Positions 37,206 through 64,000 are shown, numbered from the stretch's first letter. The stretch: DNA of 64,000 bases from an uncultured SAR116 cluster alpha proteobacterium (GCA_902523435.1 CABYZM010000002.1:1-64000); one strand, 5' to 3'. Notes: generated by a model not told the origin, from the sequence alone. Numbers and translations: made by a program.

Positions 37206-38741
37206 ATGTCAGCTGCGTTAGGCCCGCAAAAATACCGGCCAATTCATTTTATGCTCAACGGACAGGCGCATGAGATCGAAAGACTCCGCCCTGATACAAC
37301 CCTACTGCAATTGCTGCGCGGTCCGCATAACCTGACCGGTACAAAAGAGGGTTGTGCTGAAGGCGATTGCGGGGCTTGCACGATTTTGGTGGGGCGGTTG
37401 CAAGCAGGCCAGATAGTTTGGCAACCTGTGAACGCTTGCATACTGTTGCTCCCAATGGCTGATAAATCTGTCATCCGAACAGTTGAGGGTGTTGCAAAGG
37501 AAGATGGGACGCTACACCCGGTTCAACAGGCGATGGTAGACCATCACGGCTCACAATGCGGGTTCTGCACCCCAGGGTTTGTAATGTCTTTATATGGAGG
37601 CTGGCTAAACAGATCTTCTTTTAGTGCCTCTGACCTTGATGATTTGCTTGCAGGAAATCTTTGCCGTTGCACTGGATATGGCCCAATTATTAAAGCTGGC
37701 GAATCATTGGCAGGACAACCTCTTGCTGAATGGGAAACAGTTCTGCTAGATGAAGAAAAAGCCTATTTAGAGACATGTGAGGCACTTCCAGGGCTGGTTT
37801 ATGCGGCAGAAGGAGCCTCATTTATTGCTCCTCTTTCAAAGGATAGTTTCGCGCGAGCCTTTATGGAACAGCCTGGGGCACAGATTATCGCAGGGGCAAC
37901 AGATATTGGCTTATGGATCACTAAGCAAAATCAGAAATTGCTTTCATTTATATCTGTTCAGGATGTGAGTGGGCTGGATGATGTAACAGAGCAAAAGGAC
38001 GGCTTTTATATTGGCGCCGCCGCTACACATCATAAAGCAGCTGATTTTCTGGCGGCACATTTTCCATCTTTAAAGGAATTATGGCGACGTTTTGGTTCAG
38101 TCCAAGTAAGGGCAAGTGGGACGATAGGCGGCAATATTGCCAACGGCTCTCCAATTGGTGACCTAGCACCTGCCTTTATCGCTCTGGATGCCGACCTGCT
38201 TCTTCGACGTGGAAAAGAAGAGCGAAGGCTGAAACTAGAAGATTTCTTTTTGTCTTACGGTCAGCAGGACCGGCAACAAAGTGAATGGGTGGATGGCCTG
38301 TTTATTCCGAAATTATCAACGGATTGGAAATTCAATTGTTACAAACTTTCCCGTAGGTTTGACCAAGACATTTCAGCCGTAATGGGAGCTTTTGCTCTCA
38401 AAATAGAGGATGGCAAGATTACAGCTGCACGAATAGCCTTTGGGGGCATGGCCGGTGTTCCGCAACGCGCCCGCTCACTTGAAACAGCTCTTATTGGACA
38501 GGCTTTGGAGCCAGACAAGATAAATGAACCAGCAATCGATTCAGCCCTGGCAGATGATTTTACACCGATAAGTGATGTCAGAGCCTCAGCAGAGTATCGA
38601 TTGCTTGGCGCCCGCAATCTCTTACAGAAATGCCGTTTGGAAATGATAGTAGACAAGCCTGTAAGGCTCGCAGGAGAGGGATTAGCATCGGCAGGGTTGT
38701 CCCCCTTGTGCAGCATCGCCTCCAGCGAGGCAAGACAATGA
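37206..38741 (+). CDS. xdhA: Xanthine dehydrogenase small subunit (Fe-S/FAD)
   Basis: XdhA carries the electron-transfer half of xanthine dehydrogenase, which oxidises hypoxanthine and xanthine to urate. The 511-residue protein has the plant-type 2Fe-2S site with C50, C55, C58 and C78 ([15 protein letters not shown]), the second 2Fe-2S domain with [16 protein letters not shown] and [12 protein letters not shown], and a FAD domain from about residue 200 with [11 protein letters not shown] and [18 protein letters not shown] lies six bases before the ATG. The stop overlaps the xdhB ATG (ATGA). Confidence 0.94.
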
Positions 38742-41056
38742 CCCTGCCTGTAAAATCCAGGCAAGTTCACGCAGCCCTACGCCATGAAAGTGCCGCCCTT
38801 CATGTCACTGGGCAAGCTCGCTATGTAGATGATATGGCCCTACCAGAAAACTCTGTACATATTGCACTTGGGTTAAGTGCTGTCGCGCATGGCCGGCTAA
38901 TCTCAATTGATGCTGAAGCTGCTTTGCGCATGCCAGGAGTGCGGGCAGTGCTTACGGCTGCTGATATTCCCGGAAAAAACGACTGCAGCCCGGTAAAGGG
39001 TGATGACCCTATATTTGCCAAAGATGAGATTATGTATCATGGACAGACGCTATTCGCGGTAGTTGCTAATACACGAGCACAAGCCAGAGACGCAGTAGAA
39101 CAGGTGAAGACTAAAATTACACCGCTTGCCCCTATCTTAAACATCGATGCAGCTATTGAGCAGGAAAGTTTTCTTGAAAAACCACTGACTCTATCATCCG
39201 GACAGGCAGATAATGCCTATGCGGCAGCCCCCTGCCAGCTGGCAGGAGAGCTGTATGCCGGTGGGCAAGAGCATTTTTATCTGGAAGGCCAGGCCGCCAT
39301 TGCCCAGGCAGATGAAAATGGAGGCATTCAGTTATTTGTATCTACACAGCACCCAAGTGAAATTCAGCATAAGGTTGCTGGCATGTTGGGGCTAACTTAT
39401 GGTGATATTCAGGTTGATGTCAGACGGATGGGCGGAGGCTTTGGAGGCAAGGAAAGCCAGAGCAATCTAACCGCCTGCATTGCTGCACTTGCTGCTCATA
39501 AAACAGGGCGCCCAGCCCGCCTTGTCTATGACCGAGATGATGACATGCGGGTCACAGGTAAGCGCCATGATATCAAGTTGGTCTATAAAGTTGGCTTTGA
39601 TCAGGATGGGCGATTAATTGCGCTAATTATTGACCAGTATCTGCGATGTGGAATGTCTTATGATCTGTCAAAGGCTATTGCCATCCGGGCGATGACACAC
39701 GCTGAAAATGCCTACGCCATCCCTCACACCCGCATTACCGCCCATTTATGCAAAACACATACCCCTTCGAATACAGCATTTAGGGGATTTGGCGGCCCAC
39801 AGGGCATGATCGGTATCGAACAGATCATGGATAAAATCGCTACTCATCTGAACTTGGACCCAATCGCCCTCAGACAGCTGAATTACTATCCTGATTATGA
39901 AGCCGGCACGCCGTGCTGCACACCCTATGGCCAGATTGTCAAAGATGGGCTGCTTGGAAAGATAACAAAACAGCTCTTAGAAACCGCTGATTATCAAAAC
40001 AGACGACAACAGATCGACACCCACAACCAGACTAATCCGGTGCTACGACGTGGCCTAGGATTTGCACCAGTTAAATTTGGGATCTCCTTTAACAGAACCA
40101 TGTTGAATCAAGGTGGTGCTCTTGTTAATGTCTATTCAGATGGCTCAGTGCACCTCAATCATGGCGGTACTGAGATGGGCCAAGGGCTACATACAAAGAT
40201 CATCCAAATTGTAGCTGATGTGTTTGGACTAGCACATGAAGATGTCCGAATTTCAGCCACGACCACAGGCAAAGTGCCAAACACATCTGCGACAGCGGCT
40301 TCATCCGGAACTGACCTGAACGGGATGGCTGCTGCACGCGCAGCTGATGCCATCAAACAGCGCATGACCGCCCATCTAGCTGAGCTTTATCAGTGTAAAG
40401 CGGATAGGATTACTTTTCAGGATAGACAGGTCAACCTGCCTTCTAGTGAATATCTGTCTTTTTCTAAAGCCGTCGGATTATGTTATGAGGGACGGGTCTC
40501 GCTCTCTGCAACAGGCTTTTATGCTACACCTGATATCCATTGGGATGATGCCAGCCTGACCGGCTCACCCTATTATTATTTTGCTTATGGTGCCGCATTA
40601 TGTGAGGTCGCGATTGACAGGCTAACAGGTGAGTCTCGAATCCTACGCACAGATATTCTTCATGATGCTGGTCATTCCATTAATCCAGCGCTTGATAAGG
40701 GCCAAATTGAAGGCGGGTTTGTTCAAGGCGCTGGCTGGCTGACCACTGAGGAACTTGTCTACGGACAGGATGGGGCGTTGCTGACACATGCGCCATCCAC
40801 CTATAAAATTCCAGCTTGTTCAGACAGACCTTATCTTCTCAACATCAACCTTTATGAAGGGGACGGTAATCGTTCAGAGACCATTCACAGATCAAAAGCT
40901 GTTGGTGAGCCTCCTTTCATGCTTGGAATATCTGTTTTTCTTGCCTGCGGGGATGCACTAAGAGGCCTGAGCTCAACAAAAAGCTACCCTGAGCTGCACG
41001 CGCCCGCTACTGCAGAACGTCTATTGATGGCTGCACAGGCGCAGCAAAAATTATGA
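38738..41056 (+). CDS. xdhB: Xanthine dehydrogenase large (molybdopterin) subunit
   Basis: The 772-residue molybdenum-cofactor subunit, where xanthine is hydroxylated. Conserved stretches include [13 protein letters not shown], the Moco-site [36 protein letters not shown] and, near the C terminus, [11 protein letters not shown] with the catalytic Glu. The true start is the ATG at 38738 in the ATGA overlap; an in-frame codon at 38630 would overlap xdhA by over 100 bases. The C terminus overlaps xdhC by four bases. Confidence 0.95.
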
Positions 41057-41970
41057 AAATTGGCACTGTTTTGCAGAATTGGGCGCAGGCAGCGTTAGCG
41101 AAGCTTGACGAGGGCTATGTCTGTCTGGTTGCTGTTTGCGAAGCAAAGGGCTCTGCACCACGTGAAGCTGGGGCAGCCATGCTGGTATATAAGAACAATA
41201 TTGATGGCAGTATTGGAGGCGGTGAGCTCGAGTTTCAAGCCATCAAAACTGCCCGGAAAGATATACCGGAAACAGCTTTTGCGCGCGAAGTGAGATCCTA
41301 TCCTCTCGGGCCAGCGCTTGGTCAGTGCTGCGGCGGTCATGTCAAGCTAATGTTTGAATGGTATGGGCCGAGCAGCCAATCCGTTTTGGCGCAGCTTGCA
41401 GCACAGAAACAGGGTTACAGCCTGCATCCAGCCACTTCACAAGACAACCCAATAATTGCAATACATCCATCCGAAGAGATGCTGTGTCTGCCCTTATGCG
41501 CGCATCAGCAGCCTGTATTTTTATATGGTGCAGGTCATGTTGGCAGGGCTGTTGTTCAAATTGCCCGTCACCTGCCCTGCCAGATTTATTGGGTAGATAC
41601 AGATGATGAGCGTTTTCCGAAGGACATTGCTGAGGGGGTGACCAAACTGCCTGCGCGTCATCCAGAGACTATTGCACAACGCGCACCAAGTGACACTATA
41701 CATCTTATAATGACTTATTCCCATCAGCTTGATTTTGAAATTGTCTCCACAGTATTAAGTAACGGCAATTTTGCTAGATGTGCCCTGATAGGGTCAGAAA
41801 CCAAGGCAGCGCGGTTCAACAAGCGTCTGAGAGATGCAGGTGTAAAGTCTGATGCAGTAAAAAGGCTTACCTGTCCAATTGGTCTGCCTGAAATTAATGG
41901 CAAAAAACCTATCCAAGTTGCTTTATCAGTTACAGCACAACTTTCCAACTGGCTAATATCTTCAGATTAG
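41053..41970 (+). CDS. xdhC: Xanthine dehydrogenase accessory protein XdhC
   Basis: XdhC binds molybdenum cofactor, promotes its sulfuration and inserts it into XdhB. The 305-residue protein has the N-terminal XdhC/CoxI domain (EAKGSAPREAGAAMLV, SIGGGELEF and LGPALGQCCGGHV with the paired Cys) and a C-terminal Rossmann domain with VFLYGAGHVGRAVV. Order xdhA-xdhB-xdhC with four-base overlaps indicates one operon. It ends in a four-base convergent overlap with the ABC permease gene on the other strand. Confidence 0.94.
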   Translation: MKIGTVLQNWAQAALAKLDEGYVCLVAVCEAKGSAPREAGAAMLVYKNNIDGSIGGGELEFQAIKTARKDIPETAFAREVRSYPLGPALGQCCGGHVKLMFEWYGPSSQSVLAQLAAQKQGYSLHPATSQDNPIIAIHPSEEMLCLPLCAHQQPVFLYGAGHVGRAVVQIARHLPCQIYWVDTDDERFPKDIAEGVTKLPARHPETIAQRAPSDTIHLIMTYSHQLDFEIVSTVLSNGNFARCALIGSETKAARFNKRLRDAGVKSDAVKRLTCPIGLPEINGKKPIQVALSVTAQLSNWLISSD

Positions 41971-42722
41971 TCAGCCTGACGTTCTGCCCATCCTGCAAAT
42001 ATACGTTCCAAAAAGACGACAACATAATAGAGTGCTATCCCCAAAATTGCCAAAGCAATCAGAACCGCAAACATTAGCGGATAATCTGAATTAGTTTTTC
42101 CACTGTCAAATAGAGCGCCTAAGCCTCTGCCGTGAGGCGAGACAATTTCCATCAAGTTTGTGCCAATAAATGCAAGGGTGACAGCTACTTTCAATGCTCC
42201 AAAAAATTCTGGAAGTGTTTTGGGCAGTGCAATTTTCCAGAAAATAGTAAATTTTGAAGCTCCAAGCGCCCGCAGAATATCACGATATTCTGGCTCCAAT
42301 GTAGACAAGCCAATAGAAACTGAAACAGCAATTGGAAAAAATGAAATCATAAAAGCGATCAAAACCGTATTCAGATCGTGCTGCCCAACAAACATTAGAG
42401 CAACAATTGGGACGACGGTTGCTTTCGGAATAGCATTAAAACCAACAAGAAGGGGATAAAGTCCCTCCCGGACAACCTTTGAAAATCCCATAACCATGCC
42501 CAACAAAACACCGATTATGATGGCAATAATTAACCCTAGGACAGTTCGCCATAAGGTTTCCCACCCAAAGGTAAAGAAAAGCCACTTGAAACGCCAAAAG
42601 GCAGGCCAAAGGTCACTGGGGGAGGCCATTTTGTAATTGGGCCAACCATTTACCCATACAAGCATTTCCCAAAACAAAAGAAACAGTATGATAGCAAATA
42701 AGGGAACAGCCAACTGTCTCAT
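41967..42722 (-). CDS. NitT/TauT-family ABC importer permease
   Basis: A 251-residue permease with about six spans and the coupling loop LRALGASKFTIFWKIALPKT of SsuC/TauC/ThiX-type importers. It overlaps the ATPase gene by four bases and makes a complete importer with the two genes upstream. Since the system lies between xdhABC and the urate/allantoin genes, purines or ureides are the likely cargo; a thiamine-precursor role, suggested by the binding-protein fold, is the alternative. Confidence 0.87.
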   Translation of the reverse strand: MRQLAVPLFAIILFLLFWEMLVWVNGWPNYKMASPSDLWPAFWRFKWLFFTFGWETLWRTVLGLIIAIIIGVLLGMVMGFSKVVREGLYPLLVGFNAIPKATVVPIVALMFVGQHDLNTVLIAFMISFFPIAVSVSIGLSTLEPEYRDILRALGASKFTIFWKIALPKTLPEFFGALKVAVTLAFIGTNLMEIVSPHGRGLGALFDSGKTNSDYPLMFAVLIALAILGIALYYVVVFLERIFAGWAERQAD

Positions 42723-43534
42723 AATTTGTCCTCTTCATCTTTACGGGCAATTTTTATCTGCTCACGAAGAATATTCAGAGTTTCAATAGCCTTAGGCGTA
42801 TAGAGTTGGTCAAGACTTTTTGGCCCCCGCTGTTTTAATTTCTGACAATATTGAACAGTTGCTGGCCGCCCTGATAACACCACAACCTCATCAGCAAGAA
42901 AAATGGACTCACGTAAATCATGTGTAATCAGAACACCTGTGAAGGGTTCTTCCTCCCGAAGTCTGTGCATCGTCTGCCATAGGTCTTCACGAGTGAAAGC
43001 ATCAAGAGCACCAAAAGGTTCGTCCAGAATAAGCACTTCAGGCCGATGCACAAGTGCGCGGCATAAAGATGCACGTTGTCGCATGCCGCCAGATAATTCA
43101 GACGGTCGTTTCTGTTCAAAACCAGACAATCCAACCAATTTCAAAAGATCCTGCGCACGGGCCTCACGTTCTGCGGAACTCATCGCGTTTGGCACAATCT
43201 CAAGGGGCAGCATAACATTTTGCAATATTGTTCGCCATTCCAACAGAACAGGATTCTGAAAGGCCATACCAACAGTATCCCGCGGCTTATTTACTTTCTG
43301 CCCTTGCAACCAGACCGTGCCTTTATCTGGCTTGAGCAGCCCTGCCACCAAACGCGTCACTGTTGATTTACCGCAACCGGAAGGCCCAACAATTGCCGTA
43401 AAGCCATTTTTGGGCACACTTAGCGTCAAATCGTCAAGTACTGGGAGAACGCCGGTATCTGTATTAAACGTGTGAGAGACGTTTTCAATCCGAATAAGGC
43501 CTGTATTTTTTCTAACCGTCATAAGACCAGCCAA
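42719..43534 (-). CDS. NitT/TauT-family ABC importer ATP-binding protein
   Basis: A 271-residue ATPase with Walker A GPSGCGKST, Q-loop GMAFQNPVLLEWRTILQNVMLP (the LLEWRT form is usual in this family), signature LSGGMRQR and Walker B VLILDEPFGALD. It follows the binding-protein gene after a gap filled by a 16-pair hairpin, and overlaps the permease by four bases. Confidence 0.88.
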   Translation of the reverse strand: MAGLMTVRKNTGLIRIENVSHTFNTDTGVLPVLDDLTLSVPKNGFTAIVGPSGCGKSTVTRLVAGLLKPDKGTVWLQGQKVNKPRDTVGMAFQNPVLLEWRTILQNVMLPLEIVPNAMSSAEREARAQDLLKLVGLSGFEQKRPSELSGGMRQRASLCRALVHRPEVLILDEPFGALDAFTREDLWQTMHRLREEEPFTGVLITHDLRESIFLADEVVVLSGRPATVQYCQKLKQRGPKSLDQLYTPKAIETLNILREQIKIARKDEEDKL

Positions 43535-43536
43535 TC

Positions 43537-43573
43537 CATCAAAACAGCCTGCATTAAGCAGGCTGTTTTGATG
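43537..43573 (-). terminator. Perfect 16-pair hairpin between binding-protein and ATPase genes
   Basis: CATCAAAACAGCCTGC (43537-43552) and GCAGGCTGTTTTGATG (43558-43573) pair perfectly around ATTAA. The stem begins seven bases after the binding-protein stop and ends just before the ATPase start. There is no T run after it on the minus strand, so it is more likely a 3' mRNA stabiliser or partial terminator than a full stop. Confidence 0.65.
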
Positions 43574-43579
43574 TTATTT

Positions 43580-44593
43580 TCAGTTTAAAGATATGCCGCT
43601 GGCTGGCAAATACTCGTCTGTGAAATATAGAGCTGCATTTGGTGCTGCTTTATATTCATAAGTTTCGCTGAGCTGCTCAATTGCTGCAGCGAAGCGCGAG
43701 GAGTCAACGCCACCCATACCATTTGCCCTCACATAGTCTGTCAGGACATTCGCATCAATGGCCAATTGAAGACGTCTCTGCTCTAATGCTGCGTCAGCTG
43801 CCGGATTACGTTTCACGAGTGCTGCTGCTGCTGCCTTTGGGTCTTTTATGGCATCTCTCCAGCCAGCCCCAATAGCGACAAGAAACTTTTTCACCATATC
43901 TGAGTTATTTTTTGCATAGTCAGTATTCACAATAACTGCATTGCCGTAGAGTTTTAGGCCATGGTCTGCCATCAGAATCGTTGAAATATCCTCTTCAGGT
44001 ACGCCAAGACGGACAAGGTTTAGATAAGAAGAAAAGGAAAACCCTGTGACTGAATCAACCTTACCTTCAGCTAGCATGGGCTCTCTAGTTGGGAACCCAA
44101 CTGGCTCGACTTTCACTTTACTAATGTCAATGCCATTTGCCTTAGCAAAAGATGGGAATTGAGCCCAAGCCCCATCAGGTGGAGGAGCGCCAAGAACTGA
44201 GCCTTCTAGGTCACCGGGCCCGCTTACACCTCTGGACTTTCTTCCAATCACAGCAAAAGGAGGCTTGTCATAGACCATCATAACGGCTGTTACAGGCGCG
44301 CCTGGGTTCTGATCAAGAAATTTGATAAGCGAATTAATATCTGCGAAGCCAAAAGGGAACGAACCAGTAGCAACCTTGGGGATGGCATCTAAAGAGCCCT
44401 TGCCCGGGGTAATTTCCACATCCATGCCTGCTGACTTGAAATGTCCTTTATCAATGGCAAGGAAGTAAGGTGCTGAGGGACCCTCAAATTTCCAGTCTAG
44501 AGCAAATTGCACTTTTGTATCCGCATGACTTGAGGCAGCCATCAACATTGAAGCTAGTCCGATCGCTAGATACTTAGTTATTTTATTTATCAT
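43580..44593 (-). CDS. NMT1/THI5-like periplasmic substrate-binding protein
   Basis: A 337-residue ABC binding protein with a signal peptide cleaved near SSHA, and the family opening VQFALDWKFEGPSAPYFLAI followed by GHFKSAGMDVEI. ThiY-like proteins with this ALDW opening bind pyrimidine or purine-like rings stacked on aromatic residues, which fits a purine or ureide ligand given the neighbours, but the ligand cannot be read directly. CAGGAG precedes the ATG. First gene of the importer operon. Confidence 0.87.
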   Translation of the reverse strand: MINKITKYLAIGLASMLMAASSHADTKVQFALDWKFEGPSAPYFLAIDKGHFKSAGMDVEITPGKGSLDAIPKVATGSFPFGFADINSLIKFLDQNPGAPVTAVMMVYDKPPFAVIGRKSRGVSGPGDLEGSVLGAPPPDGAWAQFPSFAKANGIDISKVKVEPVGFPTREPMLAEGKVDSVTGFSFSSYLNLVRLGVPEEDISTILMADHGLKLYGNAVIVNTDYAKNNSDMVKKFLVAIGAGWRDAIKDPKAAAAALVKRNPAADAALEQRRLQLAIDANVLTDYVRANGMGGVDSSRFAAAIEQLSETYEYKAAPNAALYFTDEYLPASGISLN

Positions 44594-44813
44594 AATGTTT
44601 CTCCTGTATTTACAGCGTCCGTCAAAACGGCACTATAGTATTGGCAAATACTGAAGCATAATTGTACAGCGTTGAAATAACAGCTCTATGCTGAATTTTT
44701 TGCATCAGCAACCCAATTTAATGAGTGTCTCCTAAAAATTCTGAAATGTAAATGAAACGAGACAAATTCGAACGTTTCCTTAAATTCACTTATGCCTGTG
44801 ATAATATTGAGTA

Positions 44814-45299
44814 CTAATCTGTGATGATATAGGTTTCCTCAAACCAGTATTCTTCAAGATTCGTCCCTGACCCAATTCTATCAATAACAGAAAATCGTCC
44901 AGGCTTAGATAGAGGTGTAAGTACACCGTGCCAAATGTTGGCATGATAATTTACACCCATGTAAGGTTCAGTCAGGAACGCTATAGGGTGGCCAGGTCGG
45001 CCATTTTGGTCCTCAGCTACAGTCACCAAAAAAGATGCTTCGGTCATCGGCAAAAAGGCTTGTGAGCCGAGAGGGTGACGTTCCATCATTTCTAATCTGT
45101 AAGGCAATTGGCGAGGAACAGAATCAAACAGGCTAATGCCACTTTGCCCATCAATATGAGTGACCTTGGCGCGATCATGAAAACGACCACACATACCTTG
45201 ATTTATTATTTTGTCCGGTTTACCCGCAAAATCGAGTACATCGCCAAAAGGGGCAAAGCGAGTTGCTGTCAGCACTTCTGCCTTAATCTGAACAGGCAC
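44814..45299 (-). CDS. allA: Ureidoglycolate lyase
   Basis: AllA splits ureidoglycolate into glyoxylate and urea, the last step of allantoin breakdown. The 161-residue cupin-fold protein has the family stretches FAPFGDVLDF, HPLGSQAFLPM, VNYHANIWHGVLTPL and DRIGSGTNLEEYWF. It lies three bases after allE and is the last gene of puuE-uraD, allE, allA. Glyoxylate from it could be reduced by the GhrA-like enzyme at the start of the window. Confidence 0.92.
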   Translation of the reverse strand: MPVQIKAEVLTATRFAPFGDVLDFAGKPDKIINQGMCGRFHDRAKVTHIDGQSGISLFDSVPRQLPYRLEMMERHPLGSQAFLPMTEASFLVTVAEDQNGRPGHPIAFLTEPYMGVNYHANIWHGVLTPLSKPGRFSVIDRIGSGTNLEEYWFEETYIITD

Positions 45300-45302
45300 A
45301 GG

Positions 45303-46127
45303 CTAAAGCTCCAGCTTGGCATGGCGGTTTACGTCTTTGTAAAGCAGATAGCGAAATGGCTCTGGACCGCCAGCATAGCAGGCTTGCGGACAAAAGGCCC
45401 GCAACCACATATAGTCACCTGCCTCAACCTCTATCCAGTTCTGGTTAAGATGATAAACGGCCTTTCCCTGCAAAACATATAAACCATGTTCCATGACATG
45501 TGTTTCAGCAAAGGGGATCACGCCACCTGGCTGAAAGGTGACAATATTCACATGCATATCATGGCGGATATCTTCTGGGTCAACAAAACGGCTTGTTGCC
45601 CAGACACCATTTGTATCCGGCATGTCAACAGCCTTTATATCCTGGTCTGAACTCACAAACGCCTCTGGTCGATCAATGCCTTCGATGCTCTGATAACGCT
45701 TCCGGATCCAGTGAAATCGGCAGGGATGTGAAGAACGGTTCTGAACAGACCAGTCTGACCCGGAAGGAACATAGGCATATCCACCTGTTTTCAGGTCATA
45801 TATATGACCATCAATAATTACTTGAAGCTCTCCCGACACAATGAATATAACCGACTGTGCCTCGCTGTCATTTTCAGGTCGCACGGAACCACCACCTGCA
45901 TCAACCACCATGATGTAATGTGAGAAAGTTTCCGCAAAACCAGTTAATGGCCGGGCCAATACCCACAACCGGGTTTTATCCCAAAACGGCAGGTAGCTTG
46001 TCGTAATGTCTGATAATGTGCTTTTCGGAATGAAGGCGTAAGCGTCTGTAAAAATAGCCCGGTCAGTCAGTAATTGTGACTGCGGCGGTAGTCCGCCATC
46101 TGGAGCATAATAAGGCGGTGAGGTCAT
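45303..46127 (-). CDS. allE: (S)-ureidoglycine aminohydrolase
   Basis: A 274-residue bicupin that converts S-ureidoglycine to S-ureidoglycolate with release of ammonia (E. coli YlbA/AllE, plant UGlyAH). It has YYAPDGGLPPQ near the start, ETFSHYIMVVDAGGGS, and the C-terminal cupin with the Mn ligands in PFAETHVMEHGLYVLQG. The presence of AllE implies an allantoate amidohydrolase route (AllC), whose gene is not in the window. It sits between puuE-uraD (32 bases) and allA (3 bases). Confidence 0.92.
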   Translation of the reverse strand: MTSPPYYAPDGGLPPQSQLLTDRAIFTDAYAFIPKSTLSDITTSYLPFWDKTRLWVLARPLTGFAETFSHYIMVVDAGGGSVRPENDSEAQSVIFIVSGELQVIIDGHIYDLKTGGYAYVPSGSDWSVQNRSSHPCRFHWIRKRYQSIEGIDRPEAFVSSDQDIKAVDMPDTNGVWATSRFVDPEDIRHDMHVNIVTFQPGGVIPFAETHVMEHGLYVLQGKAVYHLNQNWIEVEAGDYMWLRAFCPQACYAGGPEPFRYLLYKDVNRHAKLEL

Positions 46128-46159
46128 ATCTTTATTATGTCTTGTCTATCTATTTTTAT

Positions 46160-47620
46160 TTAGTTGATCTGCGCTGACATCTGGGCGAAAAAATCATCCA
46201 CACGCAATCGTGCTATTTTTTCAACCTGTTGGCAAGCCTCTGCAAATTCCTCTTCTTGTGTATTGTTTAGGCGTTGTTCAAAGATGGTTTGTATTTCCGG
46301 CGCTGACAGGCCCCTCACAGCGATGATAAAAGGAAAGGAGAATCTTTTTTTGTATGTGTCATTCAGATTTTTGAAAGCACCTTGCTGCTCTTGGGTTAAT
46401 AGGTCCAGACCAGCTGATGCCTGCTCAGCTGATGAGGCATCAGTCAGCTGTTTTGCTTTTGCAAGTTTGCCAGCCAAATCAGGATGTGCCATTAAAACGG
46501 AAAGGCGTTTTTCAAAAGAGGCTAAACGGAACTGCTGGCACAGTGCGGCATGCAAACCTGCAGGTGTATCCATGGCCGGGCTTGTTTCTGTATCATAGAC
46601 GTTTTCGGCAATCCAAGAGGAGTGTTCAAACACAGACCCAAATGCTGAAACAAAGTCTTTGTTTGACATTTGTGAAGGACGGTCGACTGGCTGATAAGGA
46701 TAAGCCGCTTGCCAGCATTCAGCAATAGACAGGCGACTTGCAAACCACACACCTGTTTTCTGAGCAGCATAATCTATAAAGGATTTAACTGCCTGCAACC
46801 TGCCTGGCCTGCCAGCAAGCCGGCAATGTAGACCAATATTCATAATCCGAGCCTTACCAGCTTTGCCTTCTGCATACAAAACATCGAATGTATCTTTTAA
46901 GTAGTCAAAAAACTGCTGTCCAGAATTAAAGCCCTGGGGTGTAGCGAAGCGCATATCATTCGCATCAAGCGTATAAGGAACCATCAGCTGTGGGCCTGAC
47001 GGAGTGTCCTGATAATAGGGCAAATCATCCGCGTAGCTATCTGCCTGATAGGTACAGATGCCCTGTTCAGCAACTAAATCAACTGTGTTTTCTGAGCAGC
47101 GACCTGTATACCAACCACTTGGTGGTGTGCCGACCACAGCTTCATGCATCCTTATCGCTTGCACAATTTCAGCTCGCTCTTCCGTAGGCGTATAGTCCTT
47201 GTAATCGATCCATTTCAGCCCATGCGAGGCAATTTCCCAGCCGGCCTGCTTCATCGCTGCAACCTGTTCAGGGGCACGTGCAAGCGCGGTTGCCACACCA
47301 AAAACAGTGACAGGTATATTTTGAGCTGTGAACAAATCAAAAAGCCGCCAAAAGCCTGTGCGTGCCCCATATTCATATATGGATTCCATGTTCCAATGCC
47401 GCTGGCCAGGCCAAGGTGCAGCACCGACGATTTCTGACAGAAAGGCTTCTGATTCAGAATCGCCATGTAAAAGACAGCGCTCACCCCCTTCTTCATAATT
47501 GACAACAAACTGGACAGCCAGTTTTGCATCATCTGGCCAAGGCGGGGCAGGGACATGTCTGCCAAAACCTGTCATATCACGTGGATAATAAACCATTGCT
47601 GTTTTGTCCCTATCTGTCAA
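46160..47620 (-). CDS. Fused allantoinase (PuuE) and OHCU decarboxylase (UraD)
   Basis: A 486-residue bifunctional protein. Residues 1-310 form a polysaccharide deacetylase-fold PuuE allantoinase, with FVVNYEEGGERCLLHGD, EIASHGLKWIDY, ADDLPYYQD, LDANDMRFATP and LHCRLAGRPGR. Residues from about 315 form UraD, which decarboxylates OHCU to S-allantoin; H379 in AHPDLAGK and the RFSFPFIIAVRG segment are its active-site features. The fusion joins the enzyme that makes S-allantoin to the one that opens it. Several bacteria have the same fusion. Divergent from uraH-puuD. Confidence 0.93.
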   Translation of the reverse strand: MTDRDKTAMVYYPRDMTGFGRHVPAPPWPDDAKLAVQFVVNYEEGGERCLLHGDSESEAFLSEIVGAAPWPGQRHWNMESIYEYGARTGFWRLFDLFTAQNIPVTVFGVATALARAPEQVAAMKQAGWEIASHGLKWIDYKDYTPTEERAEIVQAIRMHEAVVGTPPSGWYTGRCSENTVDLVAEQGICTYQADSYADDLPYYQDTPSGPQLMVPYTLDANDMRFATPQGFNSGQQFFDYLKDTFDVLYAEGKAGKARIMNIGLHCRLAGRPGRLQAVKSFIDYAAQKTGVWFASRLSIAECWQAAYPYQPVDRPSQMSNKDFVSAFGSVFEHSSWIAENVYDTETSPAMDTPAGLHAALCQQFRLASFEKRLSVLMAHPDLAGKLAKAKQLTDASSAEQASAGLDLLTQEQQGAFKNLNDTYKKRFSFPFIIAVRGLSAPEIQTIFEQRLNNTQEEEFAEACQQVEKIARLRVDDFFAQMSAQIN

Positions 47621-52977: not shown

Positions 52978-53904
52978 TTAAAACCCAACCTTATCTGCCC
53001 CTTTTAGTTTAAGCATGCCTCTGGCTTCGGCAGGAGTGGCAATTTCGAGCCCCATGCCTTCGATTAATTTCCTTACCTGTGTGACCTGTTCGGCATTTGA
53101 TGTAGCCAGCTGTTTTGGTTTAATCCATAAACTGTCCTCAAGGCCAACCCGCACATTTCCACCCATACCGGCAGCCATCGCCGCGATGCGCATCTGATGC
53201 CGTCCAGCCCCTATGACTGACCAGTGAAACTGATCCCCAAACAAGCGATCAGCTGTGCGTTTCATATGCATGACATCTTCAGGATCTGTGCCTATGCCCC
53301 CCAGAATGCCAAAAACTGACTGGATAAAGAACGGAGGTTTAACAATGCCCCGATCTGCAAAATGTGCCAGAGTATACAAATGGCCAATATCATAACATTC
53401 AATTTCAAAGCGAGTGCCATTTTCTGCACAGGTGGTCAGAATATATTCAATATCAGCGAATGTATTTTTAAAAATCAGATTAGTAGAGCCCGCCAGATAG
53501 GGCTCTTCCCAATCATGTTTGAATTCACTGAACCGGCTGAGCATCGGGTAAAGGCCAAAATTCATCGATCCCATATTCAATGAGGCTACTTCTGGCCTGA
53601 ATTGTTCTGCAGGACGCACACGTTCCTGAACCGTCATTGTTGGAGCGCCGCCTGTGGTGATGTTAACAACCGCATCTGTTGACTGTTTGACAACCTGCAA
53701 AATGGGTGCAAACGCCTCAGGGCTTTGATCAGGTCGGCCCGTTTCCGGGTCACGAGCATGAATGTGAACGAGAGCTGCACCTGCTTCTGCGGCTTCAATC
53801 GCTGCTGTAGCAACCTGCTGCGGCGTAATAGGCAAATGCGGAGACATAGAGGGAGTATGAATTGCGCCCGTAACCGCGCAGGTAATCATCACTTTTTTTG
53901 CCAT
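52978..53904 (-). CDS. Beta-keto acid cleavage enzyme (BKACE, DUF849)
   Basis: A 308-residue Zn-dependent TIM-barrel enzyme of the family founded by 3-keto-5-aminohexanoate cleavage enzyme. It condenses a beta-keto acid with acetyl-CoA and splits it to acetoacetate plus a new CoA ester. The zinc-site motif VHIHARDP has H47 and H49, followed by VNITTGG, and VRVGLEDSLW near the C terminus carries the conserved Glu. The neighbouring 3-hydroxy acid dehydrogenase would supply the beta-keto acid. Substrates in this family include dehydrocarnitine; the ligand here is not decided by the sequence. Confidence 0.9.
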   Translation of the reverse strand: MAKKVMITCAVTGAIHTPSMSPHLPITPQQVATAAIEAAEAGAALVHIHARDPETGRPDQSPEAFAPILQVVKQSTDAVVNITTGGAPTMTVQERVRPAEQFRPEVASLNMGSMNFGLYPMLSRFSEFKHDWEEPYLAGSTNLIFKNTFADIEYILTTCAENGTRFEIECYDIGHLYTLAHFADRGIVKPPFFIQSVFGILGGIGTDPEDVMHMKRTADRLFGDQFHWSVIGAGRHQMRIAAMAAGMGGNVRVGLEDSLWIKPKQLATSNAEQVTQVRKLIEGMGLEIATPAEARGMLKLKGADKVGF

Positions 53905-53928
53905 GCACTCTCTCCTTCACCTGGGACG

Positions 53929-54867
53929 TTATACCTCTTCTTGGTTACGTTGTTTTTTCCATGCCGACAAGCTGGCCAAACGTTCGTTCCGCCACGCGGT
54001 ACGCCGCAGAATATCGTCCTTACCCAGCCTTGTCTGCCAGTTCTGAACAATGCTTTTGGTCACAGAAGGGTCAAACACTGTCTGCCCAGGAGGTTCTGCT
54101 GCCATATCGCGGAACAGACCGCAATAGCGCTGAAAATAATCTTCAGCCCCTTCAGGAGCATTCAGTTCTATGGTTTCAAACGGACCCATAAAGGCCCAGC
54201 GCATGCCCAGACCATCTTTCATAGTTTTGTCTAAATCCTCAACACTAATTACATCTTCATGCAGTAAGCGCAGGGCTTCTGCTAGCACAGCCCCTTGCAA
54301 ACGGTTAAGTACAAAGCCCTGCTTTTCGGATTTTATTCTGACAGGAACCATACCGCACTCTGCATAGATTTGATGAGCTTTATCCAGTATAGCTGATGAT
54401 GTCCAAGGCGAGCCGCACAGTTCAACAAGTGGAACCAGATGTGGAGGATTCACCGGATGCCCCACAAAACATCTATGCCGCCCAGATAGTTCTTCTGTAA
54501 ACTGAGATGCAATAATGGCAGATGTTGATGAGGCGATTGGTATATTAGACGGGGCTAGCTGGTCAAGTGCCTCAAACAAGCTGCGCTTTATTTCAATACG
54601 TTCAGGACCATTTTCCTGTATAAAATCAGCCCCTTTCAGAGCTGAAACCAAATCACCAGTAATCGTCAGCTTTTCTCGAACAGATTGAGGGTCTGCCAAA
54701 AGGCCATGCCGATGCAAAATTGCTGCTTCCTGCATTACGGTGTCTGATAGCTTATCTAGACAGGCCTCATTCGTATCCTGCATCACTACCTGATGGCCTG
54801 CATGCGCAAATACGACTGCCCAGGCACGCCCAATAAGTCCAGAGCCAATAATCGCAATTTTCATCAT
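53929..54867 (-). CDS. L-gulonate 3-dehydrogenase/lambda-crystallin-type 3-hydroxy acid dehydrogenase
   Basis: A 312-residue NAD-dependent dehydrogenase of the 3-hydroxyacyl-CoA dehydrogenase superfamily. IAIIGSGLIGRAWAVVFA is the Rossmann loop, SSTSAIIAS and HPVNPPHLVPLVELCG hold the catalytic region, and GFVLNRLQGAVLAEALRL begins the C-terminal domain, all close to lambda-crystallin/gulonate dehydrogenase and L-carnitine dehydrogenase. It should oxidise a free 3-hydroxy acid to the beta-keto acid used by the following BKACE. The start is ATG 54867, with AAGGA seven bases ahead; 54906 is rejected. Confidence 0.87.
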   Translation of the reverse strand: MMKIAIIGSGLIGRAWAVVFAHAGHQVVMQDTNEACLDKLSDTVMQEAAILHRHGLLADPQSVREKLTITGDLVSALKGADFIQENGPERIEIKRSLFEALDQLAPSNIPIASSTSAIIASQFTEELSGRHRCFVGHPVNPPHLVPLVELCGSPWTSSAILDKAHQIYAECGMVPVRIKSEKQGFVLNRLQGAVLAEALRLLHEDVISVEDLDKTMKDGLGMRWAFMGPFETIELNAPEGAEDYFQRYCGLFRDMAAEPPGQTVFDPSVTKSIVQNWQTRLGKDDILRRTAWRNERLASLSAWKKQRNQEEV

Positions 54868-54970
54868 CTGTTCATCCTTATTATCTTCTGCTAACTCAGA
54901 CTGCACAACTGTCTCAGCTGATTGTCAACCATTTGACTTATGCCCGGCAAACAAACACAGTGAGATTGTC

Positions 54971-58742: not shown

Positions 58743-60044
58743 TCAAAACAAAGCCTCTGGTACAAGCAATACTATTTCCGGCCAAATAATTATAAACCCA
58801 ACTGTTAGCAGCATTGCCGCCACGAAAGGAAGAATTCCTCGATAGACATCCGCTAATTCTCCACGACCCCTAACAGCTTGAACTACATACAGATTCATTC
58901 CTACAGGTGGCGTGATTAAGGCTAGCTCCATCATAATTACTAGGAAGATACCAAACCAGACGGGATCGATTCCAAGATGTAGTATAACCGGCATCACAAT
59001 TGGGATGGTGCCCACCATCATCGATAAAGTTTCCAAAAAACACCCCATGACCAGATAAAACAATACGAGGATTAAAATCATTTGTGTGGCATTTAGGCCC
59101 AGATCAGTAACAGTCCTACTCATAGCTTGCGGAACTCCAAGCAAGCCAACTATGAAGTTCAAGAAAAATGCTGCAGTAATAATAAAAAGTAGCATTGCTG
59201 AAGTCTTTATTGTCGCTATGAAGGCTTCGTGTAGCATAGGAAAACTCAATTCACGATTAATTGCAGCAAGGCCAAATGCTAAGACGACCCCTAGAGCTGC
59301 CGCTTCTGTTGGAGTAGCCCAACCACCATAAATTGCACCCATAACGATTACAAAAATACCTAAGGGTGGAACGAGGTGCCGTAGACGAAATAGGCGCTCA
59401 TTTAATGGGGGTACTTCAGTAACTTGTTCGGCCAGTGATGGCTTCCAAAGAACCGCAATTACTATGATTGTCATGAAAACAACGGTAAGCAGGATCCCTG
59501 GCAAAATACCTGCTGCGAACAATTGGCCTATCGATGTATTCGTTAATGCACCATAAATAATTAGGTTGACTGAAGGAGGTATCAGAATCCCTAATGTAGC
59601 ACCAGCGGCAATTGAGCCTAAGACTAGAGGTTCATTGTAAGCGCGACGTTTGAACTCATCAAGTGCTACAGTTCCTATAGTAGCGGCTGTTGCAACTGAA
59701 GACCCTGAGACTGCCGAAAACATTGCACATGCTCCAATATTCGTATGTAAAAGACCACCAGGCATTCGGCTAAGCCAATCTGTAAGACTTTCGTACATGT
59801 TGCGAGTAATGCCAGCACGAAGCAAAATTTCTCCTAAAAGTACAAAGAGTGGAATAGTTGTTAGAAGAAAGTCATTCATAACTGCCCAAAGACTTGTTCC
59901 ATAAGAGAGCAGAACTGGTGGGCCAAAATAGATCATCGCACCGAGTACCCCTGTTGCAAGCATTGCTATGCCAACGTGCAGACCAACAAACATGAGACCC
60001 AACATTATAAAAAAACCAAAAACAGCTCCGGTAAGATCGATCAT
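58743..60044 (-). CDS. dctM: TRAP transporter large permease (DctM)
   Basis: The 433-residue large membrane subunit of a TRAP importer, with 12 or so spans and the signatures PLFVLLGEILLRAGI, SGSSVATAATIGTVALDE, GATLGILIPPSVNLIIYG and LALITPPVGMNLYVVQ. It moves substrate with Na+ using the periplasmic DctP. The start overlaps dctQ by four bases. The importer's cargo is probably an organic acid used by the flanking enzymes. Confidence 0.93.
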   Translation of the reverse strand: MIDLTGAVFGFFIMLGLMFVGLHVGIAMLATGVLGAMIYFGPPVLLSYGTSLWAVMNDFLLTTIPLFVLLGEILLRAGITRNMYESLTDWLSRMPGGLLHTNIGACAMFSAVSGSSVATAATIGTVALDEFKRRAYNEPLVLGSIAAGATLGILIPPSVNLIIYGALTNTSIGQLFAAGILPGILLTVVFMTIIVIAVLWKPSLAEQVTEVPPLNERLFRLRHLVPPLGIFVIVMGAIYGGWATPTEAAALGVVLAFGLAAINRELSFPMLHEAFIATIKTSAMLLFIITAAFFLNFIVGLLGVPQAMSRTVTDLGLNATQMILILVLFYLVMGCFLETLSMMVGTIPIVMPVILHLGIDPVWFGIFLVIMMELALITPPVGMNLYVVQAVRGRGELADVYRGILPFVAAMLLTVGFIIIWPEIVLLVPEALF

Positions 60045-60565
60045 TTGCGGACCTCTTCAATTTCTTCACTAATAGTAGGTGGGGCCAGCACATCTTCTGC
60101 TTCTTTGAGACCAATGCGAAGAGCCAAAACACCTCGAAATGCAGTCCATAATGCAGATAAACCGAAGATTATAAGGCCAGTCATCCAAAGTGATTGAGGT
60201 ATCCATAGAGGTACCTGAAGCGGACTCGAAGAAACTGATCCAAACGTAAGGCTCTCATCAAGAGTATGCCATCCCATATACCCCATAAAAGCAGCGCCAA
60301 TCCCTAATGCTATATATGAAATAAGGTTTAGAATAGCTTGAACCTTTTTTGGTAACCTAAAAAGTAGAACATCAATGCGCGTGTGAGCTCTTTCAACAGC
60401 TGCTAGTGCCATACCGAAGGTGCCTATGATAGCAACTACATAACCACCGATTTCATCCACTCCCTGAAGCGAGTGGTTGAAGAGTTTGCGTGCAATTATC
60501 TCAAAAAAAATTAAAAAGGATAAACCCAAACAGGCATATCCGCCACATATTCCAACAATGCGCAT
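60041..60565 (-). CDS. dctQ: TRAP transporter small permease (DctQ)
   Basis: The 174-residue small membrane subunit of the TRAP importer, with four predicted spans and the conserved IFFEIIARKLFNHSLQGVDE-like first loop and TFGMALAAVERAHTRIDVLL. It links DctP and DctM. It lies after the DctP gene, separated by 50 bases with a hairpin, and overlaps dctM by four bases. Confidence 0.9.
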   Translation of the reverse strand: MRIVGICGGYACLGLSFLIFFEIIARKLFNHSLQGVDEIGGYVVAIIGTFGMALAAVERAHTRIDVLLFRLPKKVQAILNLISYIALGIGAAFMGYMGWHTLDESLTFGSVSSSPLQVPLWIPQSLWMTGLIIFGLSALWTAFRGVLALRIGLKEAEDVLAPPTISEEIEEVRK

Positions 60566-60582
60566 ATGAACTCTCTTATTTT

Positions 60583-60608
60583 AGAGGCGCGCACTACTGC
60601 ACGCCTCT
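60583..60608 (-). terminator. Hairpin between dctP and dctQ
   Basis: AGAGGCGCGCA (60583-60593) faces TGCACGCCTCT (60598-60608), giving 11 pairs with one G-U around CTAC. It begins eight bases after the dctP stop. There is no T run on the minus strand, so it is more likely an mRNA-protecting or partly terminating stem that favours the binding protein over the permeases. Confidence 0.6.
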
Positions 60609-60615
60609 TTGTTGT

Positions 60616-61659
60616 TTATTTTAATTCAATGCCCCGAACTGCTCCAACAGTAGCATTCCATACTTTAGAGCAATCTGCATAACCAGCATTACAACTCTCT
60701 GCCCAACCAGGCAAAACCTTGTCCATTGTGGCAGCTGTGACCTTGGCTTGATCTTCCGGAGTCGGTTCGACTAAAGTCATGCCAAATTTTGTATAGTTTT
60801 CACACCCATCACCTCCAGTGTTACAAGCAATAGCCCAGCCATTGTTTTGTTTGGCCAGCGCCCAAAAAGCATTCTGGAAATCAGTAAATTCATTCTCTAG
60901 TTTTGCTTTTTCTGCGTCCGAAAAACTATTCCATTTATCAAGGTTTATAAAATGTGCATTCACAGACCAAGAAATTCCAAGAGGTAAAAAGTGTGTTGTT
61001 ACTTCAGGCCAGTTTCCAGTGTTACCAGATGTTGGAGATGTAATAGCACAATCTACTAAACCACGTTGAAGTGCAGGGTAAACTTCTTTGAAACTCATAG
61101 TCACTGGCGTGGCACCTAAGGCTTCAATCAAAGTTGACATAGATGACGTGTAAGACCTAATTTTTAAGCCCTCGAAGTCATTTAGGCTCTTTATTTCGGC
61201 ATTACAGTAAAAAACCTGTGGGCCATAGGGCCACACTGCTAAAGGTTTAGCATTAAATTTTTCTGCAACACGTTTTTCTAATTGCGGCATAAAAGCTTTT
61301 ACAACTTCTTCTAGTTGATCCATCGAGGTTGATACACCGATAAGATCAATTCCTTCAAGAAATGCATCGTCACGAGCGGCCGCACCTACGGTACTTTGAA
61401 CAATATCAAATGCACCTGTCCTTACCATCCTCAAAGTATCCTGCATATCGACACCAACAACGTCTAAAGGATTAAAGTTTATTGCGAGGTCAATACCGGT
61501 TTTATCCTCTAGTTCGGCGTAAAATTGCTTTTCTAGAGCAGTGTGGAATTTATGCGTAGAAACGAGCCCTGTAGCGCGGATTGTAGTCTCGCCTACTGCA
61601 GGCATGGCGCTCATTACCAATGTTGCCACTAGTGCAAAGAAACTGTATGTAAATTTCAT
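60616..61659 (-). CDS. dctP: TRAP transporter substrate-binding protein (DctP)
   Basis: A 347-residue periplasmic binding protein with a signal peptide cleaved near PAVG, and the DctP features LKIRSYTSSMSTLIEALGAT and EVYPALQRGLVDCAIT. The Arg in LKIRSY usually binds the carboxylate of the ligand, so an organic acid is likely. Several Cys residues occur in the C-terminal part. It is the first gene of dctP-dctQ-dctM and starts 18 bases after the deacetylase-family gene. Confidence 0.9.
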   Translation of the reverse strand: MKFTYSFFALVATLVMSAMPAVGETTIRATGLVSTHKFHTALEKQFYAELEDKTGIDLAINFNPLDVVGVDMQDTLRMVRTGAFDIVQSTVGAAARDDAFLEGIDLIGVSTSMDQLEEVVKAFMPQLEKRVAEKFNAKPLAVWPYGPQVFYCNAEIKSLNDFEGLKIRSYTSSMSTLIEALGATPVTMSFKEVYPALQRGLVDCAITSPTSGNTGNWPEVTTHFLPLGISWSVNAHFINLDKWNSFSDAEKAKLENEFTDFQNAFWALAKQNNGWAIACNTGGDGCENYTKFGMTLVEPTPEDQAKVTAATMDKVLPGWAESCNAGYADCSKVWNATVGAVRGIELK

Positions 61660-61677
61660 TCATTATCTCCATTTGAG

Positions 61678-62577
61678 TTAAGTTTTTGCTGTTTGAGATA
61701 CAGCTGCGAAGTGACGAGCTATGTCTATTCGACGCGCCCGCCAGATCTGAGCGTCTAAATCCGCCAGATATTCAAGAATTTTTGTAACAGCGCGAAATCG
61801 TGCAGGTCTGCCGCCTATACGCAGATGAAACCCGATCGATAATGTTGAAGACTTTCCTGCGCGCGCTTCAAGCAAAAGTTGCTCGACCGCATCACATACA
61901 TATTCATACATTTCCGCAGACCTAACAAAACCGTTAGGGTGAAAAAACTTCATATCATTAGTATCAAGATTATATGGAACAACGATAAGACCAGAACTAT
62001 CGTGGTAAGGTAAATCGTCATCAAAAGCGTTGGATGTATAAATATAGCCTTCATTTGCCAGAAGTTTTCGGGTCCAAGAACTCTCTGAACCCCGACAAAA
62101 AAATCCAACTGGTTTTTGACCAGTTGCCGCTTTAATCGCTTCACCAGCGCGAATCAGATCATTTTTTTCACTATCGATATCAGTGTAATCTGCATTCGGC
62201 CGCCATAACCATCCATGACATGCTGTTTCGTGCCCTGCGTCCGAGACAGCGCGAGCAAGTTGAGGGCTACGTTCGACTGCTCGTCCACACATGTAAAAAG
62301 TAGCAGGTGTATCGGTATTTTTTAATACGTCAAGAAAACGCCACAGACCGACTCGGGTGCCATAAGCAAAGATTTGCTCTTGACCTAGATCACGCTGCCC
62401 TTTTGGCACGACACTAATGATCTCCCCAACGAGTTCTGAAGCTGAATCACCATCTCCCACTTGAAGTTCGGCCCCTTCTTCGAAATTCACTACCACAGAA
62501 ATTGCTACGCGCGCTCCATTAGGCCAGATAATTTCTGGCCTAGAACCTGCGTATCCAATAAGATTTCGTTCAAACAT
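61678..62577 (-). CDS. PuuE-like polysaccharide deacetylase-fold amidohydrolase
   Basis: A 299-residue protein of the allantoinase PuuE group, without the UraD domain of the other copy at 46160-47620. Shared stretches are ISVVVNFEEGAELQVGDGD, HETACHGWLWRPN, DDDLPYHDSSG and LDTNDMKFFHPNGF; the last active-site block reads GFHLRIGGRPAR where PuuE has LHCRLAGRPGR. It may hydrolyse a cyclic or linear amide other than allantoin. I take ATG 62577, which overlaps the previous gene by eight bases with GGGGA ahead; ATG 62598 and 62658 are alternatives. Confidence 0.83.
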   Translation of the reverse strand: MFERNLIGYAGSRPEIIWPNGARVAISVVVNFEEGAELQVGDGDSASELVGEIISVVPKGQRDLGQEQIFAYGTRVGLWRFLDVLKNTDTPATFYMCGRAVERSPQLARAVSDAGHETACHGWLWRPNADYTDIDSEKNDLIRAGEAIKAATGQKPVGFFCRGSESSWTRKLLANEGYIYTSNAFDDDLPYHDSSGLIVVPYNLDTNDMKFFHPNGFVRSAEMYEYVCDAVEQLLLEARAGKSSTLSIGFHLRIGGRPARFRAVTKILEYLADLDAQIWRARRIDIARHFAAVSQTAKT

Positions 62578-63301
62578 CAAATAAGCGTCCCCAGCCATGG
62601 ATGGTTTTAGGTTCCCCTCCAGCCACCTTGATTGATTTCCAAAGTGCAGTTGAGACACTATCTAGAACTGTTATTCCAGTTTCTTCTTCAATAAGTGGAG
62701 CCAACTGGGCTCCTCTAAAGTTTGTACAAAAAATCAGTATTGCGTCGGGCTGTTCGTTAGCAACAGCTCGGCAAAGTTCTAGTATGTCTGCCTCGGCATA
62801 CGTTGCAAAAGAAAAATTACCAGGATCTCCAAGATGTTTTTCAGCAGCAATCTCATACCCTTCTAATCGATAGTTATTAAGGATTTTTTGTTGAATTTCA
62901 GTTAGGTAGGGCGTAACAAAACTAATCCTTTTTGCATTGAATTTCGCAAGCAACTCATTCATAGCTAAAATTGAAGAGCAAGCTTTGATACCGGTCCTGG
63001 CTTCGATCTCCGAAATTAAAGCAGAGTCTTTTTCAAAACCTAACCAGCCTGATGACGTACCATTCCAGCAGATAGATTGAACTTTCGCATCAGCTAGTAA
63101 ATCTGCTGCCTCTAACATTGGAACATTACTAAATTGGTCCACTGAGTCAGCTTCCAACGATATCTTTAGCACTCTGAAGCGGCTGAAATGGGCCGAGATG
63201 TCAGATTGATTGGCCAGCATAGAAAAAGTCAAAGGTTCAAGAACAGTGTTTGAGGAAGGCGTAAGCATTCCAAGACGAGTACTGGCCAAGTCAGATATCA
63301 T
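62570..63301 (-). CDS. Maleate isomerase/Asp-Glu racemase superfamily protein
   Basis: A 243-residue protein with the maleate isomerase/arylmalonate decarboxylase layout. It opens RLGMLTPSSNTVLEP, and two Cys residues stand in the expected places: C78 in ICWNGTSSG and C192 in LIFCTNFRGAQL, matching the two catalytic Cys of maleate isomerases (near 76 and 194). It may isomerise, racemise or decarboxylate a short dicarboxylate-like acid. Its last bases overlap the PuuE-like gene, and it starts 17 bases from the divergent racemase-fold gene. Confidence 0.84.
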   Translation of the reverse strand: MISDLASTRLGMLTPSSNTVLEPLTFSMLANQSDISAHFSRFRVLKISLEADSVDQFSNVPMLEAADLLADAKVQSICWNGTSSGWLGFEKDSALISEIEARTGIKACSSILAMNELLAKFNAKRISFVTPYLTEIQQKILNNYRLEGYEIAAEKHLGDPGNFSFATYAEADILELCRAVANEQPDAILIFCTNFRGAQLAPLIEEETGITVLDSVSTALWKSIKVAGGEPKTIHGWGRLFDV

Positions 63302-63318
63302 ATGAAATACTCCGTCCT

Positions 63319-63975
63319 ATGAAACCGGTTCTTATAATTAATCCAAATGGCTCCCAAAAAACGACACAAGACATGGTTGGCATAACCAGACGATATTTGC
63401 CTAATGTAATGGGCTGGACAAATCATAAGGGACCAGAAATGATTGTTGATCAAGACCAGCTTTACGAGGCCGCAAATCAAATATCTGAAGCAGTTTTTCC
63501 GGAGGCAAGTGCATTGATTGTGGCTGCTTTCGGCGATCCTGGTGCTAAGAGATTGGCTGGTAGTATGGATATTCCAGTAATAGGAATTGCAGCTGCTGCG
63601 GCGCGAGAAGCAGTGTTGAGTGGAGTGTCCTTTGCCGTAGTTACTACCACTCCAAAATTGGCCCCTTCTATAGATGAAATGATGCGAGCTGAGGGGGGTG
63701 ACACTTATCTTGGATGTCACACCACGGAGGAAGATCCATTGGTTCTGGCATCCAATTCTGATGCGTTGGATTATGCTTTGATAACTTCCTGTGAAATAGC
63801 GAAAAAAGCGGGAGCCAAGCGCGTTATCATCGGTGGTGGCCCACTTAGCCAAGCTGCGAGCAGAATTTCGTCTCAGGTAAAAGTTCCCTTGATACAGCCT
63901 TTGGTTGCTGCATGCAGCGAGGTAAGTGCTCTTATAGAACATCAGCTACCCCACGTTCAAGATATTGGCCGATAG
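63319..63975 (+). CDS. Hydantoin/Asp-Glu racemase-superfamily protein without catalytic cysteines
   Basis: A 218-residue protein with the hydantoin/allantoin racemase pattern: LIINPNGSQKTTQDM at the start, LIVAAFGDPGAKRLA, IPVIGIAAAAAREAVL and FAVVTTTPKLAPSIDEMM. The two catalytic Cys of this family are replaced: A70 stands where ACFGDPG-type proteins have Cys, and G173 (in VIIGGGPLS) where LGCAG has Cys. A two-base racemase mechanism therefore looks impossible. It may be a binding or regulatory protein or an enzyme with other chemistry. It is divergent from the maleate isomerase-like gene. Confidence 0.82.
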   Translation: MKPVLIINPNGSQKTTQDMVGITRRYLPNVMGWTNHKGPEMIVDQDQLYEAANQISEAVFPEASALIVAAFGDPGAKRLAGSMDIPVIGIAAAAAREAVLSGVSFAVVTTTPKLAPSIDEMMRAEGGDTYLGCHTTEEDPLVLASNSDALDYALITSCEIAKKAGAKRVIIGGGPLSQAASRISSQVKVPLIQPLVAACSEVSALIEHQLPHVQDIGR

Positions 63976-64000
63976 GTGAGCCAATTGGCTGGCCGTCTTT

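Follow-up and report, generated by a model that had tools for sequence, protein, structure and literature searches.

A conserved gene cluster of marine and soil proteobacteria, probably serving the breakdown of a carboxylated nitrogen ring other than allantoin

Which compound does an uncultured alphaproteobacterium of the SAR116 cluster degrade with a PuuE-like amidohydrolase encoded next to a TRAP importer and to racemase-fold proteins? The window, i.e. the whole stretch of 64,000 nucleotides analysed (G000:C2:1-64000), comes from a genome 64% complete, and probably includes one end of a conserved cluster that serves the catabolism of a carboxylated ring compound, be it a cyclic ureide, an imide or of the hydantoin type, but not allantoin. 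The proposal is built on gene content, synteny, family memberships and active-site substitutions, from which we infer all reactions, their order and the substrate.

The TRAP, PuuE-like, AMD-like and racemase-fold genes named in the preliminary description are all in place, with family matches far above chance. Genes for the large and small TRAP permeases, DctM (58743..60044; TIGR00786, 323.6 bits vs a cut-off of 268) and DctQ (60041..60565; PF04290, 89 bits, and synteny), overlap by 4 nt on the minus strand, which also carries the genes for the binding protein DctP (60616..61659; NF037995, 107.9 bits vs 50), the PuuE-like cyclic amidohydrolase PuuA (61678..62577, longest ORF to 62658) and AMD, a member of the arylmalonate decarboxylase/EutA/maleate isomerase superfamily (62570..63301; PF17645, 65 bits, cut-off 25.9, and alignments). 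RACw, a protein of the allantoin/hydantoin-racemase fold, is encoded on the plus strand (63319..63975). Profile matches to DctP, DctQ and DctM together identify a TRAP transporter; the DctM orthologue holds the same position in all marine loci, and DctP keeps the GLK-x-R carboxylate arginine region. The solved structures nearest to DctP, 2pfz, 4p47 and 2pfy, score 54-59 bits, and are too remote for a ligand call; 2pfz and 2pfy, which we take to be pyroglutamate binders, provide only a hint at <60 bits. The window closes on the 3' end of HYD (63932..64000, minus strand). In the DNA past 63975 this gene continues (full length G000:C2:63932-65326), and encodes a D-hydantoinase/dihydropyrimidinase (NF009941, 704 bits vs a curated cut-off of 647; TIGR02033, 492 vs 393) similar to 1nfg (E 3e-118), the metal ligands being retained in the alignment. 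ATZ (65868-67367, plus strand), an amidohydrolase of the AtzA/TrzN/8-oxoguanine-deaminase type, follows.

It is unlikely that these genes form a second, redundant allantoin or purine-ureide route, in which PuuA would be an allantoinase variant, the racemase-fold protein an allantoin racemase and the TRAP system an allantoate importer, even though allantoinase and allantoin racemase are the nearest characterised relatives of the two enzymes. The ordinary purine/allantoin route is already present in the window, since a PuuE-UraD fusion (46160-47620), which passes both curated cut-offs (482 vs 424.6 and 190 vs 96.25 bits), sits with (S)-ureidoglycine aminohydrolase (45303-46127), ureidoglycolate lyase (44814-45299) and the xanthine dehydrogenase subunits (37206-41056). 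The region 37206-47620 looks like a complete canonical purine/allantoin degradation locus of the SAR116 genome. PuuA, in contrast, scores 264.6 bits against the PuuE model TIGR03212, 160 bits below the cut-off of 424.6, and lacks any link to UraD. PuuA and a second PuuE-like family found in relatives, PuuB, are each monophyletic, and both are separate from canonical PuuE in the tree. That the cluster is distinct from the allantoin genes, and its PuuE-like protein devoid of UraD, had been correctly perceived in the preliminary description.

PuuA is similar to the allantoinase PuuE of Pseudomonas (3cl6/1z7a) in length and fold (E 8e-65 to 3cl6; TM 0.84 between the predicted model and 3cl6), and the two share the EEG, FDDDxPY, NDM and GRP blocks. 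The substrate-side motifs have been replaced: GFFCRGxESxWTR is found where PuuE has GWYTGR, and HLRIxGRP where PuuE has HCRLIGRP. The altered last active-site block, HLRIGGRP in the window, had been pointed out earlier, and the HLRI-x-GRP pattern is fixed throughout the PuuA clade. The reported overlap of PuuA and AMD is real, but reaches 89 nt only when the longest ORF is considered; from the likely start, the ATG at 62577 (MFERNLIGYAG), which matches PuuE and the homologues, it is 8 nt.

The racemase-fold proteins speak against allantoin as well. RACw has the fold (PF01177, 102.6 bits, cut-off 31); its AF2 model (pLDDT 92.7) is closest to allantoin racemases, with TM 0.88 to 5lg5, and the NPN and Thr (TTT) blocks, substrate contacts in KpAllR, are kept. 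In KpAllR catalysis depends on Cys79 and Cys184 (PMC12661438). RACw differs from KpAllR (3qvk) and PfAllR (5lg5) because both catalytic Cys residues are changed, to Ala and Gly, within the stretches A-F-G-D-P-G and G-G-G-P-L, a loss that the preliminary description does not mention. The same substitutions occur in 44 of the 45 distinct sequences of RACw, RACc and RAC1, the racemase-fold families of these clusters, the sole exception being a second copy in locus L015, which has both Cys; the Asp of AFGDPG is invariant. Since both catalytic Cys are absent, these proteins are not expected to be two-thiol racemases, and, judging from their sequences, should not be named racemases without an assay.

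When 385 alphaproteobacterial genomes were searched with the racemase-fold genes as the starting point, PuuA, PuuB, HYD, ATZ or amidase genes adjoined Cys-less copies in 8 of 9 loci, window included, vs 1 of 13 for Cys-bearing copies. The Fisher test applied to these counts was chosen post hoc, and the counts include the window and a weak amidase match (L096), 8 of the 30 loci being unclassifiable; leaving the window out, the one-sided p is ~5e-4. A third group of racemase-fold proteins (L095, L101, L103-L108, L110, L113, L115) retains the first Cys only (ACFGDPG, GGAGL), and is placed between the two-Cys and the Cys-less groups; ureide-hydrolase neighbours are mostly absent.

The preliminary description had taken the genes for one functional unit, a notion that would fall if they failed to occur together elsewhere. 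Eighty PuuA relatives were compared with flanks up to 10 kb, and neighbourhood maps were drawn by tblastn: in other families, too, PuuA, AMD, DctPQM, HYD and racemase-fold genes are found together. In Rhodobacteraceae (L005, L006, L008, L010-L012) the order is [ABC SBP-ATPase-permease-permease]-PuuB-amidase-RAC1-HYD-(RACw antisense or absent)-AMD-PuuA-DctP-DctQ-DctM-M20, and many junctions of this full operon are 4-nt overlaps. Most of the operon recurs in a Halieaceae MAG (L009), but not the amidase or a complete ABC set. A Salipiger plasmid carries PuuB-amidase-RAC1-HYD-AMD-TRAP and no PuuA, the genes being annotated as hydA, amidase, Asp/Glu racemases and TRAP. SAR116 loci keep AMD-PuuA-DctPQM, RACw and ATZ; in the 64% complete genome of the window, neither PuuB nor M20 was found. 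The UxaA-family (GalDH) and PhyH genes, which had been suggested to belong to the same regulon, come after DctM in just one relative, the near-identical L002, whereas L003, L004 and Rhodobacteraceae lack them at this place; both should be left out.

More distant PuuA loci, in Acetobacteraceae, Rhizobiales and others, often feature PuuA, PuuB, RACc and ATZ with an ABC importer, and a looser core of PuuA, PuuB, a racemase-fold gene and ATZ recurs in Acetobacteraceae and Rhizobiales. Within 6 kb of a PuuA-clade gene (n=76), ABC genes were found 40 times, ATZ 32, RACw or RACc 30, PuuB 29, DctP 14, AMD 13, M20 12 and HYD 11. About 30 of the 76 loci have no partner enzyme nearby, which weakens the case for a common pathway, though several of them are on short contigs. 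A match on S. meliloti pSymB was discarded as a cluster, because the PuuE-like gene stands alone, with no partners nearby. In L063 (5221-9051), and in some 15 other loci, PuuB-PuuA-RACc-ATZ is accompanied by genes for a DeoR regulator, a SIS protein, a PfkB-type kinase and BtpA, a hint that the substrate of the soil relatives may be linked to a sugar, Amadori- or nucleoside-like in kind. Genes for ATP-dependent HyuA/HyuB hydantoinase/oxoprolinase are located near PuuA-clade genes in Roseomonas-type loci (L018:3843-7588 and relatives), and also downstream of the L006 operon (L006:15401-19170). A BKACE-type cleavage enzyme and a 3-hydroxyacyl-CoA dehydrogenase are encoded at most about 10 kb from the cluster both in the SAR116 window (52978-54906) and in Salipiger (L086:20494-22371); the window copy passes the 3,5-dioxohexanoate:acetyl-CoA model (553 bits vs 430).

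The vicinity of HYD, M20, which is above the hydantoinase/carbamoylase curated cut-offs, and racemase-fold genes in the full operon recalls D-hydantoinase/N-carbamoylase operons of the hyu type. Yet the classical pathway leading from 5-substituted hydantoins to amino acids by a racemase, a D-hydantoinase and a carbamoylase is also an improbable function of the cluster. Two PuuE-like enzymes, AMD, ATZ, Cys-less racemase folds and the TRAP system are added to the hyu set; that pathway has no use for PuuA/PuuB, AMD or ATZ, and both racemase-fold families are Cys-less. Moreover, HYD is missing from most PuuA loci. Intact in the window and in L002, the gene has been deleted in L003 and L004 except for the final 43 codons, which contain a stop. 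The remnants (L003:8597-8724, L004:8597-8724) lie in two SAR116 relatives in which RACw, AMD, PuuA and TRAP stayed. The deletion in both loci implies that HYD is not indispensable.

A maleamate/maleimide-type route, related to nicotinate or cyclic imide breakdown, deserves still less credit. PuuA would open the imide, the AMD-like protein isomerise maleate, and DctPQM handle C4 acids. HxnM, a NodB-fold relative of PuuE, opens 3-hydroxypiperidine-2,6-dione in nicotinate breakdown, and with the P. putida CIH and the HP0310 group illustrates how small-ring amides may be hydrolyzed by the polysaccharide-deacetylase fold, to which PuuE-like enzymes conform (PMC9304392). PuuA is, however, much nearer in sequence to PuuE (222 bits) than to 3qbu (53 bits). 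Maleate isomerase does fall in the superfamily of AMD, but AMD has one Cys only, in F-C-T-N-F-R-G, and G-T-S replaces the first Cys used by the isomerase. In 17 of 17 AMD orthologues the alignments reveal just the second Cys (CTN), and NGTS at the position of the first. A single Cys at the second position combined with the GTS dioxyanion segment is the signature of arylmalonate decarboxylase, and this pattern favours a decarboxylation over a cis-trans isomerisation, making the isomerisation proposed earlier unlikely; AMD is nonetheless far under the equivalog cut-offs (57 vs 225 bits for arylmalonate decarboxylase, and 72 vs 318). The half-amidase expected in such a route was not seen, and ATZ, HYD and M20 would be left unexplained. 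As to a merely coincidental association of genes with no common pathway, gene content does differ among clades, but a synteny conserved with 4-nt overlaps in several genera and two classes makes it hardly credible.

RACw opposes the operon in seven loci from SAR116, Rhodobacteraceae and Halieaceae, and its start is exactly 17 nt from the AMD start; in loci lacking RACw (L007, L010-L012) the HYD to AMD gap is 12-36 nt. The operon-strand frame opposite to RACw, which in the window runs from the HYD 3' end to the AMD start (ATGA; 63298..63942, minus strand), is free of stops in 7 of 7 loci. The 214-222 aa ORF found between HYD and AMD was discarded as a conserved protein, as the peptides of different families share no more amino acids than expected by chance, and the variation follows the RACw frame. 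The good Shine-Dalgarno sequence and ATG at its opening can be ascribed to the HYD C-terminus REAPDVL, which is conserved, and present also where RACw is absent. In the low-GC SAR116 RACw, TTA, CTA and TCA account for 0 of 25 Leu/Ser codons vs ~40% in neighbours (Fisher 5e-6). Under window-wide codon usage the probability of such avoidance is 2.5e-4, and the run is the longest among 58 genes; the value is ~0.01 once corrected for the 58 genes, a moderate signal.

A bolder and rather doubtful hypothesis is that Cys-less racemase folds are a new enzyme type, in which non-thiol groups would catalyse a hydrolase, lyase or decarboxylase reaction. Together with PuuA/PuuB and ATZ, they would act on a ring with no known degradation, for instance an oxidised product of a purine or pyrimidine. 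The marine-clade gene would be kept antisense within the operon, its stop-free opposite frame letting ribosomes carry the HYD-AMD transcript across.

Catabolism of a carboxylated, non-allantoin ring may plausibly proceed as follows. The TRAP system, or the ABC importer in relatives, would import the acid with its ring closed or already opened. Where ATZ is present, an amino or imino substituent would be hydrolyzed. The cyclic amide bonds would be opened by HYD and by PuuA, joined in relatives by PuuB, to give ureido/amido acids; in the full operon, carbamoyl or amide nitrogen would be released by the carbamoylase-type M20 enzyme and the amidase. AMD would decarboxylate a malonate-like intermediate via one catalytic Cys. 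The Cys-less racemase-fold proteins may bind a ureide, two-thiol proton transfer being presumably impossible for them. Amide ring-opening and acid uptake, with a hydantoin, a cyclic imide or a similar N-heterocycle as substrate, had been put forward in the preliminary description, and gain support from the D-hydantoinase found directly past the edge and from the co-occurrence of the genes in other families.

A literature search, mostly of openly accessible papers, found no description of this gene set. The labels allantoinase PuuE, hydantoin racemase and maleate isomerase are probably wrong for these genes, as far as sequence comparisons tell. What emerges is a recurrent module, found in proteobacteria of the sea and of the soil, for the probable degradation of a nitrogen ring. 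The DctP binding protein offers a direct route to finding its substrate, and how the Cys-less racemase-fold families work is a well-defined question of mechanism.
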